From Verrucomicrobiia bacterium (GTDB lineage Bacteria; Omnitrophota; Omnitrophia; Omnitrophales; Aquincolibacteriaceae): a stretch of DNA of 57,478 nt. The stretch covers positions 1-57,478 of the forward strand of contig DATJFP010000069.1 in assembly GCA_035495615.1 (NCBI GenBank), read 5' to 3'. How positions within the stretch are numbered: position 1 is the first letter of the stretch; every line of letters begins with the position of its first letter. Positions 949 to 48,562 of this stretch are shown one piece after another. The position numbers and the translations under genes are program-made. Under the pieces are notes generated by a model, which saw only the letters and a program-made list of their open reading frames with translations, was not told the origin of the DNA and ran no database searches.

Positions 949-1030
949 GCTTTCCCGGTCAAACATTTTCCGTGTTTCCGCAGGCCCTTGGTGTGTTCTC
1001 ATACTTTTTGAACGGTCTCCTTTAAATAAA

Positions 1031-1090
1031 GGGCGCTCACCCTCTCGCGCCCATCGCCAGCATGCGCGACTTATCCGTCGCGCGGCGATT
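1031..1090 (-). repeat. Palindromic double-hairpin element, copy 1
   Basis: Read on plus: hairpin A is GGGCGC (1031-1036), a 10-base loop and GCGCCC (1047-1052). Hairpin B is ATCGCC (1053-1058), a 5-base bulge, GCGCGAC (1064-1070), loop TTATCC, GTCGCGC (1077-1083) and GGCGAT (1084-1089). The same structure recurs at 14600, 14689 and 18180. This copy has one base fewer in the bulge. Its end supplies part of the holA stop codon (TAA at 1089-1091 on minus). Confidence 0.9.
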
Positions 1091-2051
1091 ACGCGCCGCA
1101 CCCAACGATCCATTGTTCCACGGCCAGCGTGTCTTCGGACGCCCTTCCGGTCTTGATCGCCCAATCCAGCTGAAAAAGGCCTTCGACCGTCTTTTCGAGG
1201 CGCAGCCTTGAAACCTGCCGGGCCTGACGCATGAAGTTTCTCCCCTGGCTTTCATACACGCCGCAGCGGAAGAGAATCGAGTTTTCCGACACGCCCTGTT
1301 CCAGCAGTACCGCCGCCAGCCACAGCCGGCGCAATTGCCAGTGCAGGAGGCCCAGGAACGAAAGAATGTCCGCGTCGTTTTCGCGGATGTACTCGTTGAA
1401 GAGTTTCAGCGCGGCCTGCGTCTTTCCGAAGCTGATCGCGTCCACCAGGTGATAGACGTTCACCGCGGTCAGCTTTTCCTCGAACATCTCCAGCATTTCC
1501 AGCGTGATCTCTTCCCGCTCGCCCGCGTACGTGGCCATCTGATTCAGGATCGAATCGAGCATGCCGGGCGCGTCGCCCACCTGCTCTTCTAGACGCCTCT
1601 GGGCGTCCGGCGCCATTTTCTTGCCGTATTGCCTCAGCTTATCCCGAATGAATTTGGAGGCCGCGCCCTGCTTGTCGCGGTCGGAAAAAAGCAGGATCTC
1701 CGCTTTTTCCTTCTGGGCCCATTTGGCCAGGGGATTTTTTTTGAGATCCGTCACCGGAGACTGGAGGATGAAGCACGTGGCCGGAGCCGGCGCTTCCCAG
1801 TACTGGGAAAAGGCCTCGAGGTCGCCCTCCTTCAGGAGGTCCGCGTCCGCGATCTTGAAGATCTGGAGCGAGATGAGGAACGGCAGCGTGCGCGCCTGGG
1901 TCAGCACGGCAGCCAGAGGGGTTTCTTTCAGGCGGAAAGTCTGCTTCGAGACGCCGCCGGGATTTTCTTTTTCAAGGCGGGCGGTGAGCTCCCGGATCTG
2001 CTCGTCCACGATGAAAGGATCGCCGAGAAAAAGATAAAACAGTTTCGCCAT
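1089..2051 (-). CDS. holA: DNA polymerase III subunit delta
   Basis: A 320-residue protein with the HolA pattern: an N-terminal clamp-loader fold (FYLFLGDPFIVDEQIREL), the segment KKNPLAKWAQKEKAEILLFS, then helical domains II and III with DILSFLGLLHWQLRRLWLAA and a C-terminal ASEDTLAVEQW. Delta opens the beta sliding clamp during loading at the replication fork. The delta subunit lacks a functional P-loop, and none is seen. The gene follows the lptE-like gene after about 50 bases and precedes the convergent rpsT. Its stop codon is formed at the boundary with palindromic element copy 1, so the last residues could have been altered by insertion. Confidence 0.93.
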   Translation of the reverse strand: MAKLFYLFLGDPFIVDEQIRELTARLEKENPGGVSKQTFRLKETPLAAVLTQARTLPFLISLQIFKIADADLLKEGDLEAFSQYWEAPAPATCFILQSPVTDLKKNPLAKWAQKEKAEILLFSDRDKQGAASKFIRDKLRQYGKKMAPDAQRRLEEQVGDAPGMLDSILNQMATYAGEREEITLEMLEMFEEKLTAVNVYHLVDAISFGKTQAALKLFNEYIRENDADILSFLGLLHWQLRRLWLAAVLLEQGVSENSILFRCGVYESQGRNFMRQARQVSRLRLEKTVEGLFQLDWAIKTGRASEDTLAVEQWIVGCGA

Positions 2052-11947: not shown

Positions 11948-14419
11948 TTAATTCAAGACGATATTGACGATGCGGCCGGGCACGACCACGACTTGCTTGA
12001 GGGTCTTCCCTTCCAGCCAGGGAACAATGGCCTCGTGTTCGAGGGCCATTTTCCGGATTTCGTCTTCGCTACTCGATGAAGAAACGACTATTTTGGTGCG
12101 AACTTTACCGCCCACCAGGACAGCCAGCTCGGCGCTCGCTTCCGCCAGGCACTTCTCGTCCCATTTCGGCCAAGGAGCCCAGCCCAGGGTTTCCTTGCCG
12201 CCGAGGCGCTGCCAGAGTTCTTCCGACAGGTGCGGCGCGAAGGGCGCCAGGAGAAGAATGAAATTTTTCAACATGGAAGCCGCGTAGGTTTCGTCTTTCA
12301 ACGTTTCGTTGATGAAGATCATGAGCGCCGAGATCGCAGTGTTGTAACGGCCGCCTTCCAGATCTTCGGTCACCTTCTTCACGGTCTGGTTCATGCGTTT
12401 GTTTTCCGCGGGCGTCAATTCCCTGTCCTGGATCTTGGGGCTGAGCGTGCCTTCTCGTTCGATGAAAAGGCGCCACACGCGCGAAAGAAAACGGTACACG
12501 CCTTCCACGCCGTTCATGGACCAGGGCTTGGTCATTTCCAGCGGGCCCATGAACATTTCGTAGAGGCGCACGCTGTCCGCGCCGTAATCGGCTATAAGGT
12601 CGTCGGGATTGACGACATTGCCGCGCGACTTCGACATCTTCTGGCTGTCCTCGCCCAGGATCATGCCCTGGTTGATGAGCTTGTGGAACGGTTCTTTGGT
12701 TTTGACGACGCCGATGTCGTAGAGCACTTTGTGCCAGAAGCGCGAATACAGAAGATGCAGCACCGCGTGTTCCGCGCCGCCGATGTAAAGGTCCACCGGC
12801 ATCCAGTATTTTTCTTTCGCGGGATCGATCAGCGCTTTGTCGTTCTTCGGGTCGATGTAGCGCAAATAGTACCAGCAGGAACCGGCCCATTGCGGCATGG
12901 TGTTGGTTTCACGCAGTGCGGGCTTTCCGGTCTCGTCTTTTGTCTGCACCCAGTCTTTGACCGCGGCGAGCGGCGGCTCGCCGGTTCCCGTAGGCTTGAA
13001 GCTCGACGTCTCAGGAAGGCGCAGCGGCAATTCGCTTTCGGAAATAAGTTTCGGCTTCCCATCCGCGTGAATCACGGGAATGGGTTCGCCCCAGTAGCGC
13101 TGGCGCGAGAATAGCCAGTCGCGTAATTTGTACTGGATAGATTTCTTGCCGATCGTTTTCTGTTCGAGCCAGGCCGTGATTTTTTCCTTGGCCCCGTCGC
13201 TTTTCAGGCCGTCGATCGAGAATCCTTTGTCCGGCGTCGTGGAATTGAAGCAAACGCCCACGCCCGTAAAGGCCTCTTTCTGAAAATCGAAATTCGCTTC
13301 TTCGGGATGCTTGATGACGGGAACGATCTTGATGCCGTACTTCACCGCGAATTCGTGATCGCGTTCGTCATGCGCGGGAACAGCCATGATGGCACCGGTT
13401 CCGTAGCTGATCAGCACATAGTCGGCAATCCAAATCGGGATCTTCTGGCCGTTCACGGGATTCACCGCGTACGCGCCGGTGAACACGCCTGTTTTTTCTT
13501 TATTGAGTTCCGTCCGGTCGAGATCGGATTTCTTCGAGGCGGCATCGACGTATTTTCCGACCGCGGCTTTCTGCGAGTCCGTCGTGATTTTTTTGACGAG
13601 AGCATGCTCGGGCGAAAGCACCATGTAGGTCGCGCCGAAAAGCGTGTCCGGCCGCGTCGTGTAAATGCGGACCGTATCGCCGGCGCCGTCGATTTTAAAA
13701 TCCACTTCCGCGCCGACCGAGCGCCCGATCCAGTTGCGCTGCATTTCCTTGATGGCTTCCGGCCAGTCGAGTTCTTCCAAGTCTTCCAGAAGGCGGTCGG
13801 CGTACTTTGTGATCCTCAGCACCCACTGACGCATGGGCTTGCGGATGACCGGATGCCCGCCGCGCTCGGATTTGCCGTCGATCACTTCTTCGTTCGCGAG
13901 CACCGTGCCGAGTTCCGGGCACCAGTTCACGGGCATCTCGGCTTCGTAGGCCAGGCCCCTTTCGAAAAGCTTCATGAAGATCCACTGCGTCCAGCGGAAG
14001 TAGCCCGGATCGGTCGTGTCGACTTCGCGGTCCCAGTCGTAGCTGAAGCCGAGGCGTTTGATCTGGCGGCGAAAATTGTCGACGTTCTTTTTCGTGGTCT
14101 CGCGAGGATGCGTGCCGGTTTCAATCGCGTACTGCTCGGCGGGAAGCCCGAACGCGTCCCAGCCCATGGGATGAAGCACGTTGAAGCCGCGCATCCTTTT
14201 ATAACGGGCCGTGATGTCGGTGGCGGTGTAGCCTTCGAGATGGCCGACGTGAAGGCCCGCGCCCGATGGGTACGGGAACATGTCGAGCACGTAGTACTTG
14301 GGCTTGTTACTTCCGGGCTCTCCCGGATCGGGCGCGCGGAAGGTCTTGTTCTTTTCCCAGAACGCCTGCCACTTGGGCTCGAGTTCGTCGAAGGGGTAGG
14401 CTTTGAAGCCGGATGCCAT
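11948..14419 (-). CDS. leuS: Leucyl-tRNA synthetase
   Basis: 823 residues, normal for bacterial LeuRS. The HIGH motif appears as HVGH (57-60) within [16 protein letters not shown]. The editing domain includes [19 protein letters not shown], the zinc-like region is present, and KMSKSRGNV (about 594) is the KMSKS loop. The anticodon-binding domain and C-terminal tail end GRIVNIVLN. It charges tRNA-Leu in the cytoplasm. AGGAA precedes the ATG. A tRNA-Leu(CAA) gene lies 52 bases upstream on the same strand. No T-box or leucine leader peptide is visible in the short gap. In many genomes leuS is next to lptE and holA; here a glycosidase, exeA/gspB, comEC and bamD-like genes intervene. Confidence 0.97.
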
Positions 14420-14470
14420 TTGGATTCCTGTGTTTGGTTTTCGAAATCAAGGAGAGAGTTGAAAACAAAA

Positions 14471-14554
14471 TGCGGAGGGAGAGAGTCGAACTCTCATGCT
14501 CTTGCGAGCGCTGGATTTTGAGTCCAGTGTGTCTGCCAGTTCCACCACCCCCGC
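14471..14554 (-). tRNA. tRNA-Leu (anticodon CAA)
   Basis: An 84-base gene. The acceptor stem is GCGGGGG (14554-14548) with CCTCCGC (14478-14472) and discriminator A. The anticodon arm is CTGGA-CTCAAAA-TCCAG, giving anticodon CAA (decodes UUG). A long class II variable arm (CGCTC GCAA GAGCA) and a T arm GAGAGTTCGACTCTC complete it. CCA is not encoded. It lies just upstream of leuS and is the intact partner of the broken copy at 14661-14801. Confidence 0.95.
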
Positions 14555-14599
14555 ATCAAATCTTCTTACTCAAAGATCCGTGCGATATTAATTCATTAA

Positions 14600-14660
14600 G
14601 GGTCCTCACCGTCTCGGACCCATCGCCAAGCGTGCGCGACTTATTCGTCGCGCGGCGATT
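14600..14660 (-). repeat. Palindromic double-hairpin element, copy 2
   Basis: Hairpin A reads GGGTCC (14600-14605), a 10-base loop TCACCGTCTC and GGACCC (14616-14621). Hairpin B has ATCGCC/GGCGAT outer and GCGCGAC/GTCGCGC inner arms. Compared with copy 1, two base pairs of hairpin A are changed on both sides, so pairing is kept. It abuts the 3' end of the broken tRNA-Leu, replacing the last bases of its acceptor stem. Confidence 0.92.
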
Positions 14661-14801
14661 GGAGGGAGAGAGTCGAACTCTCTGTTAAGGGCCCTCACCG
14701 TCTCGGGCCCATCGTCAAGCATGCGCGACTTATTCGTCGCGCGACGATTGAGCGCTGGATTTTGGCCCCGTGTGTAAGCCTGCCAGTTCCACCACCCCCG
14801 C
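14661..14801 (-). pseudogene. Broken tRNA-Leu(CAA) interrupted by palindromic element
   Basis: The 5' half (GCGGGGGTGGTGGAACTGGC from 14801) is identical to the intact tRNA-Leu next door. The D loop then gains GCTT and the 5' strand of the anticodon stem is changed (CACGGGGCCAAAA), so only three pairs remain. The variable arm is replaced after CGCTC by element copy 3, after which the T arm GAGAGTTCGACTCTC resumes. The 3' acceptor strand stops at CCTCC and is followed directly by element copy 2. The result is unlikely to fold or be processed as a tRNA. Confidence 0.85.
14689..14749 (-). repeat. Palindromic double-hairpin element, copy 3, inside a tRNA-Leu copy
   Basis: Hairpin A is GGGCCC (14689-14694), loop TCACCGTCTC and GGGCCC (14705-14710). 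Hairpin B has outer arms ATCGTC (14711-14716) and GACGAT (14743-14748), a compensated change from ATCGCC/GGCGAT in the other copies. It sits exactly in the variable arm of the broken tRNA-Leu. Confidence 0.92.
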
Positions 14802-14822
14802 ATCAAAGCCAAAAGTCCGGAA

Positions 14823-14828
14823 ATTCTA
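14823..14828 (-). promoter_or_regulatory. Predicted -10 box upstream of the tRNA-Leu region
   Basis: On minus, TAGAAT lies 22 bases before the first base of the broken tRNA-Leu. A weak -35 candidate (TTAAAG) stands about 16 bases further upstream. It could drive the broken copy, the intact tRNA-Leu and perhaps leuS. Confidence 0.4.
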
Positions 14829-14856
14829 GCACAAGCGGCTTTAAGAGCAAAGGACG

Positions 14857-18094: not shown

Positions 18095-18322
18095 GTTAGA
18101 GCACCTATCAAAACCCCGCTTGGCTGCAAACTCGCATGCCGGCGGGCTTCGTTGTTCCGCCGGTCAAAAAGTGCTCAGCAATCGCCGCGCGACGAATAAG
18201 TCGCGCATGTTTGGCGATGGGCGCGAGATGGTGAGCGCCCGTCACAACACTTTTTGCCCGTCGCGCCTAGAATCCCTTTGGCCTGCGAGTTTTCGCTTCA
18301 ACCGGGATTTTGTTAGGCGCTC
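18095..18322. repeat. 228-base imperfect palindrome filling the rlmH-macrodomain gap
   Basis: The left arm from 18102 (TTAGAGCACCTATCAAAACC ... CAAACTCGCATGCCGG ... CAAAAAGTGCTC) matches the reverse complement of the right arm ending at 18325 (TTAAGAGCGCCTAACAAAAT ... AAAACTCGCAGGCC ... CAAAAAGTGTTG) with clear but imperfect identity. The double-hairpin element copy 4 forms the centre (18180-18240). The structure begins next to the macrodomain start codon and ends at the rlmH stop codon, which lies at its edge. It has no open reading frame of note. Confidence 0.85.
18180..18240 (-). repeat. Palindromic double-hairpin element, copy 4 (reverse orientation)
   Basis: Inverted relative to copies 1-3. 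Read on minus: GGGCGC, a loop TCACCATCTC, GCGCCC, then ATCGCC, bulge AAACAT, GCGCGAC, loop TTATTC, GTCGCGC and GGCGAT. It is the core of the larger palindrome 18095-18322. Confidence 0.92.
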
Positions 18323-48415: not shown

Positions 48416-48498
48416 TGGCACAACGCGTGCCTTAGGCAAACTGCCCGAAAGGGCAGGACGCAAAGCCACAGTCCCTGAATCATGGGAGGCTGGGCCGC
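48416..48498 (+). promoter_or_regulatory. Cyclic-di-GMP-I (GEMM) riboswitch
   Basis: The plus strand reads TTAGGCAAACTGCCC, GAAA tetraloop, GGGCAGGACGCAAAGCC, then ACAGTCCCTGAATCATGGGA and GGCTGGGCCGCC. The GGCAAAC and GGACGCAAAGCC segments around a GAAA-capped stem, and the closing GGC...GCC stem, are the GEMM-I signature. By eye the base at the position equal to Vc2 G20 is G, which favours c-di-GMP over cGAMP. It lies 65 bases before the start codon of the protease gene on the same strand. I see no clear terminator, so control at translation or by another structure is possible. Confidence 0.85.
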
Positions 48499-48562
48499 CA
48501 CCACTCGGGTCGTCTTCCGCTCCGCGGAATTTGCCGGCAGTTCCCACACAACGGAACCGGCA

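Follow-up and report, generated by a model that had tools for sequence, protein, structure and literature searches.

One of the questions raised by the DNA analyzed here, a stretch of 57,478 nucleotides from an Omnitrophota genome (the window), is how a single tRNA gene came to be accompanied by a broken copy of itself. The sole intact tRNA in the window is a tRNA-Leu(CAA), located just upstream of leuS (11948-14419, minus strand). Further upstream of it lies a dead partial copy of the same gene (14661-14807, minus strand), which carries two copies of a short hairpin-forming element that we call R1. The initial annotation described this arrangement and considered either a preference of the element for tRNA hairpins or its spread by tandem duplication. 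We analyzed the locus, its counterparts in relatives and the other places in which R1 is found, and the features of the window that bear on the question are collected in Table 1.

Table 1. Positions of the tRNA-Leu(CAA) gene, the parts of its dead copy and the R1 elements within the window.
Feature	Position	Strand	Basis
Intact tRNA-Leu(CAA)	14470..14555	-	ARAGORN; Rfam RF00005, 53 bits
R1 copy 2, two-hairpin, where the tRNA-Leu copy would have its acceptor 3' end	14596..14660	-	R1 model, 91.6 bits
Dead tRNA-Leu copy, T arm with the 3' strand of the acceptor, CAGAGAGTTCGACTCTCTCCCTCC	14661..14684	-	Identity to intact gene
R1 copy 3, in place of the variable arm (10 nt lost)	14685..14749	-	R1 model, 93.0 bits
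Dead tRNA-Leu copy, 5' part with the 5' strand of the acceptor, the D arm, the decayed anticodon arm and a few shared bases of the 5' flank	14750..14807	-	Direct repeat
R1 copy 1, intergenic	1029..1091	-	R1 model
R1 copy 4, intergenic	18180..18243	+	R1 model

The broken tRNA-Leu copy and its empty counterparts

Alignment to the intact gene shows that the upstream copy is a tRNA-Leu, and the direct repeat between the two scores 40, against at most 12-12.5 in shuffles. On the minus strand the 5' part of the copy reads TTTGATGCGGGGGTGGTGGAACTGGCAG..AAAATCCAGCGCTC. It matches the intact gene over 28 bases that begin in the 5' flank and run through the D arm, after which the D loop and the anticodon 5' strand are altered and AAAATCCAGCGCTC follows. 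R1 copy 3 breaks the dead tRNA exactly at the former variable arm GCAAGAGCAT, and beyond it the T arm segment is identical to the intact tRNA-Leu in 22 of 22 positions from GAGAG on. The order of the locus is tRNA-Leu 5' part, R1, T arm, R1, spacer and intact tRNA-Leu; comparison of inverted and direct repeats revealed no inverted arm at this site. The initial annotation was correct in describing a broken copy with two elements, of which copy 3 replaces the variable arm and copy 2 the acceptor 3' end, and in which the anticodon stem has decayed. Between 14400 and 14850 the dead copy is called a tRNA neither by ARAGORN nor by Rfam at E<=5. A tRNA intron was rejected as an explanation: the variable arm has lost 10 bases, the acceptor end is gone and the anticodon stem has decayed, so that excision would leave no complete tRNA.

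R1 copies 2 and 3 are each 65 nt long and 92% identical, and they differ by paired changes (GGGTCC/GGACCC vs GGGCCC/GGGCCC and ATCGCC/GGCGAT vs ATCGTC/GACGAT). They share no flanks, and their mutual identity is not above their identity to copies at other loci (up to 92%), which makes a recent tandem duplication unlikely. The same comparison supports two independent insertions, as had been proposed at the outset, and speaks against the spread of the element by tandem duplication.

All 27 family genomes that were searched gave a leuS-like match. Seventeen relatives carry a tRNA-Leu(CAA) on the same strand beside leuS, and the sequence upstream of it (up to 400 nt, or less where a contig ends) contains R1 in none of them; two further relatives, in which the tRNA-Leu(CAA) is on the opposite strand, were left unscored. 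Such empty sites had been suggested as a check by the initial annotation, which named an arrangement kept in relatives as a result that would contradict it. Since the site is empty in these relatives, a conserved functional arrangement at the tRNA-Leu locus was rejected.

A comparable locus was seen in another genome (L208, G011:C15), where a short tRNA-Leu 5' copy directly ahead of tRNA-Leu(CAA) contains a different palindrome, CCTGCCTGCCGGCAGGCAGG. The palindrome and the 5' copy occur there twice and are followed by the intact gene. This is an independent case of the same kind as the window tRNA-Leu site.

The R1 element and its two settings

R1 is a structured element of ~65 nt that folds into two hairpins, with the near-invariant loops GACGAATAAG and GAGANGGTGAG. 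In an alignment of 47 distinct sequences, which was fitted to a covariance model and so leans towards the model structure, although the stem changes are nonetheless plain by eye, 91.6% of cells form standard pairs, both partners have changed in 17 of the 19 pairs, and covariation scores 0.679 vs 0.158 in shuffles (0/500) and <=0.143 for slid pairings. R1 has no Rfam family match (E<=3 in 10 R1 loci; E<=5 in the window at 14400-14850). A known RNA family was rejected, as Rfam scans of the window, the R1 loci and the tRNA-linked units described below returned only tRNA, tmRNA, one riboswitch and chance matches. At 48426-48503 (+) the window contains a c-di-GMP-I-GGC riboswitch aptamer (60.8 bits at the Rfam gathering score).

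By covariance-model search R1 was found in 23 of 384 Omnitrophota genomes, none of which has more than 8 copies; they include JACQCH01, a Candidatus Omnitrophota MAG. A collection-wide pattern search yielded one true further copy, in JACQCH010000002.1 (Omnitrophota; G084:C16). At this locus (L187/L050) R1 sits where an rplJ-like frame ends and directly before an rplL-like gene, both names coming from reading the sequence. Three pattern matches in Bacteroidales/Saprospirales MAGs were discarded, since the first hairpin is missing and they look like chance, and viral carriers were rejected because the IMG/VR pattern matches are without stems and represent chance.

The genome to which the window belongs (G000; 3.16 Mb, 106 contigs, 44 tRNAs) has eight R1 copies, four in the window and four elsewhere. 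The latter lie one each near tRNA-Arg(CCT), tRNA-Gly(TCC), tRNA-Val(CAC) and tRNA-Arg(TCG), the last being degenerate. Six of the eight copies are within ~200 nt of a tRNA and all six share its direction. Counted by locus, the probability that at least five of seven loci would fall within 350 nt of a tRNA by chance, given 44 tRNAs, is ~3e-9. Copies in G216 follow tRNA-Val, two tRNA-Arg and a tmRNA, and others in G205, G089 and G317 follow tRNA-Leu, tRNA-Arg and tRNA-Trp. The bias is not universal, as no copy in G084 follows a tRNA. Of the two intergenic copies in the window, copy 1 has its left edge straddled by the TAA stop of the preceding open frame, and copy 4 lies between the halves of an imperfect inverted repeat (18158-18173 / 18248-18263). 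Within 18128-18292, nested inverted repeats (16 nt at 88% and 23 nt at 78%) surround copy 4 with no tRNA near, and these surroundings are possibly another hairpin unit at a non-tRNA site.

Two settings of R1 can be recognized. In one of them R1 lies downstream of a tRNA or tmRNA, inside larger units that are bounded by repeats of the tRNA 3' end (L065, L179, L180, L181, L183 and L165). At L183 (G216:C55) the R1-bearing unit is directly downstream of the tmRNA and carries repeats of the 3' end of the tmRNA T arm. In the other setting a truncated 5' copy of a gene is directly followed by R1, and the intact gene begins 12-36 nt after it. Such cases are aroK in two genera (L158, L163), xseB in two genomes (L169, L170), gpsA (L162, with 35/35 positions identical) and tRNA-Arg(CCG) (L171), where the names aroK, gpsA and xseB were assigned by reading translated starts; the repeats of all four genes score above every shuffle. 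The window tRNA-Leu site belongs to this second setting. In gpsA and xseB the duplication ends <=~2 nt from the start codon, which is not predicted by simple staggered cutting. When surroundings were compared with shuffles, most intergenic R1 copies showed no direct repeat, so the duplication may reflect the survival of gene insertions and not the chemistry of insertion. At L163 (G096) an apparent second R1 right hairpin precedes the first copy of the aroK start, and the aroK start together with R1 may thus be tandemly repeated there.

The preference proposed by the initial annotation was borne out for the neighborhood of tRNAs (6/8 copies in the genome) and not for tRNA hairpins as such, since most tRNA-side copies are nested in downstream tRNA-linked units and others lie at protein-gene starts.

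Hairpin units downstream of tRNA genes

Downstream of many tRNAs in this genome, the tRNA's own 3' end recurs in inverted orientation, from the T loop to the acceptor, often with a direct copy after it. The plan of such a unit, downstream of the tRNA, is inverted tRNA 3' end, hairpin scaffold and direct tRNA 3' end. The arms form a stem around the multi-hairpin scaffold, the direct arm starts at about C56/R57 of the tRNA, and the whole unit is ~100-250 nt in size with no gene inside. Downstream sequence of at least 100 nt was available for 41 tRNAs. Of these, 12 score at least 11 for an inverted match, vs 11 of 1640 cross-comparisons, and 14 have an inverted or a direct 3'-end copy.

The arms enclose scaffolds of at least two classes, and several of the class A/B units contain R1. 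Class A is a three-way junction (inverted arm-GAAGGGAG-P2-CGGGYGG..P3..-direct arm) that is found in 27 of 58 related Omnitrophota genomes and in 0/198 Bacteroidota-type genomes, the latter drawn from the phylum of a Bacteroidales MAG. Its pairing shows strong covariation, with 94.9% of cells paired and 28 of 34 pairs altered on both sides, and 67 of the 89 distinct units lie <=160 nt downstream of a same-strand tRNA, covering 29 isoacceptors. Class B occurs in 10 of the 58 related genomes, and one class B unit is directly downstream of a tmRNA (L102, G030:C76), with repeats of the 3' end of the tmRNA T arm. A third scaffold type was seen at tRNA-Lys(TTT) and tRNA-Gly(TCC) of this genome (L025, L037), which have GATCRACGGAG..GCGACCTTATGGGAGC.. 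in common.

The inverted arm of class A matches its own tRNA over at least 10 nt in 73% of cases and other tRNAs of the same genome in 4%. Mean scaffold identity is 0.687 between different tRNAs of one genome, while between genera it is 0.634 for the same tRNA and 0.635 for different tRNAs. The scaffolds thus cluster by genome and not by tRNA species, and the arms fit each host tRNA. In G017, for example, the Ala, Asp and Val units have scaffolds that are 88-94% alike and arms that fit each tRNA over ~8 nt or more. The synteny of tRNA-Ala(GGC) and tRNA-Leu(CAA) provides another view, as G017 has a ~190-nt unit after tRNA-Ala(GGC) and G004, G010 and G006 are empty at this place. The sharing of scaffolds across tRNAs, together with this synteny, indicates that the units move or exchange between tRNAs and that their arms are made to match. 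Such matching might be achieved by fold-back copying of the target or by recombination of a folded strand. An integron-like gene-cassette array was rejected, since repeated unit matches on one contig are mostly separate tRNA genes, each with its own unit. In the literature on tRNA-linked repeats, RttR and Omnitrophota elements, surveyed mostly outside the subscription journals, the units were not found described.

A probable mobile palindrome and its alternatives

How did the tRNA-Leu copy arise? We consider it probable that R1, acting as a small, non-autonomous mobile element, left the window site behind as a dead 5' copy of tRNA-Leu(CAA). R1 copy 2 would have entered the acceptor end of the tRNA-Leu, at CCTCC, and a duplication spanning the gene from its 5' end up to this point would have left an intact tRNA on the other side. 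The spare upstream copy would then have been free to decay, and would later have taken R1 copy 3 in its variable arm. With less confidence, we suggest that R1 moves as a folded single strand whose loops are recognized by an enzyme acting in trans, and that insertions into tRNA genes might survive because the duplication of the tRNA end restores the gene. For mobility speak a dispersed multicopy element, its conserved fold, the tRNA bias, the gene-end duplications and the empty sites. Regarding the enzyme, a retroelement with its own reverse transcriptase was rejected, because this genome and most unit-rich relatives lack RVT_1 (PF00078), and reverse transcription by an RVT_1 enzyme in this genome is unlikely. 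Y1_Tnp genes are present (two in G000), and no R1 or class A copy was found within ~2 kb of either of these Y1/RAYT genes or in eleven further Y1 regions of relatives; mobilization by RAYT was rejected on the basis that the examined Y1 genes have no such neighbors.

One alternative option is that R1 is a functional cis-acting or small RNA, such as a leader or an intercistronic RNA, that is selected at gene starts and tRNA ends and is not mobile. The strong covariation is also expected of a functional RNA, and so are the near-invariant loops. R1 often lies in sense orientation a short way ahead of start codons (L157, L160, L162, L163, L178), and in the two genera of one family that share the aroK arrangement the differences are mostly synonymous. 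Yet, R1 is patchy across the Omnitrophota genomes and multicopy where present, its neighbor genes are unrelated, the orthologous tRNA-Leu site is empty and R1 is nested at differing positions in the tRNA-linked units, and we regard such a function as an unlikely explanation. Even less probable, in our opinion, is that replication slippage or tandem duplication round a tRNA palindrome, and not transposition, produced both the elements and the tRNA fragment. The 65-nt element recurs at unrelated loci and related sequences are found in other families, which slippage does not readily explain, nor does it account for copies 2 and 3 having no common flanks and being no closer to each other than to other copies; what fits it is that tandem units are common at these tRNAs (L135, L138, Pro(CGG), Arg(TCG)) and that L208 has two partial tRNA-Leu copies, each holding an unrelated palindrome.

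Another hypothesis, which is possible but doubtful, is that the tRNA-linked units result from site-specific integration at the T loop, through an integrase att site or an integron-like folded-strand site, with R1 as a passenger. Class A and B units resemble integrase attL/attR in duplicating the tRNA 3' end directly, from the T loop on. The G017 unit with its empty counterparts, and the arms that pair as a stem round a multi-hairpin scaffold, can also be read in this way. However, the units contain no integrase gene, are much like each other at different tRNAs while their arms differ (as in G017), unlike the product of a one-tRNA integrase, and differ from attL/attR in their small gene-free size, in the extra inverted copy and in the use of one scaffold at many tRNA species. 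The window locus lacks an inverted arm and repeats the 5' part of the tRNA, not its 3' end, and many R1 copies lie away from tRNAs.

Mobility of R1, which remains our preferred reading, finds its best parallel in REP-type palindromes. REP/BIME elements are short, dispersed, non-coding, intergenic, hairpin-forming and non-autonomous, and are mobilized by RAYT (IS200/IS605-like) transposases. R1 shares these traits of REP (short, dispersed, non-coding, intergenic, hairpin-forming, non-autonomous) and is closest to this type of mobile palindrome. It differs in being longer and more complex, with two covarying hairpins over ~65 nt against a REP size of 20-40 bp (PMC3733652), as well as in its conserved loops, low copy number, tRNA bias and gene-end duplications, and in that the examined RAYT genes are not flanked by it.

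The units have a parallel of their own in RtT (RF00391) of the E. coli tyrT/tyrV genes. There a tRNA-Tyr is followed by a spacer, an inverted copy of the 3' half (GGGGAAGGAT), a multi-hairpin scaffold and a direct copy of the 3' end (AATCCTTCCCCCACCACCA), in tandem, as verified in NC_000913.3. Class A and B units share this architecture of inverted and direct tRNA 3'-end copies round a scaffold. The differences are that RtT is found at tRNA-Tyr in E. coli, whereas class A is found at 29 isoacceptors and other units at tmRNA, and that the scaffolds differ. The RtT model of Rfam, which gives 133-138 bits on the E. coli control, has no match at E<=1 in 13 unit loci of this genome, at E<=3 in 10 R1 loci or at E<=5 in the window at 14400-14850. 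R1, for its part, is distinct from RtT, and no RtT-like inverted arm is present at the window tRNA-Leu site. It is conceivable, though we hold it with little confidence, that the Omnitrophota units are an active, so far undescribed class of mobile hairpins that lands at the T arm of almost any tRNA or tmRNA and with each move copies the 3' end of the host tRNA into both arms, with R1 as a nested element of the same kind and RtT as a relative in kind that stands alone.

R1 is a covarying element of two hairpins that Rfam does not contain, and around it the analysis describes tRNA-attached hairpin units, a family widespread in Omnitrophota that generalizes the RtT repeats of E. coli. For the annotation of these genomes it also means that tRNA fragments and 3'-end repeats are not all traces of island integration. 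If it is true that the units re-copy the end of each new host tRNA, this would be a mobility unlike that of standard transposons or integrases, and the tRNA ends of many genomes would be natural records of its mechanism.
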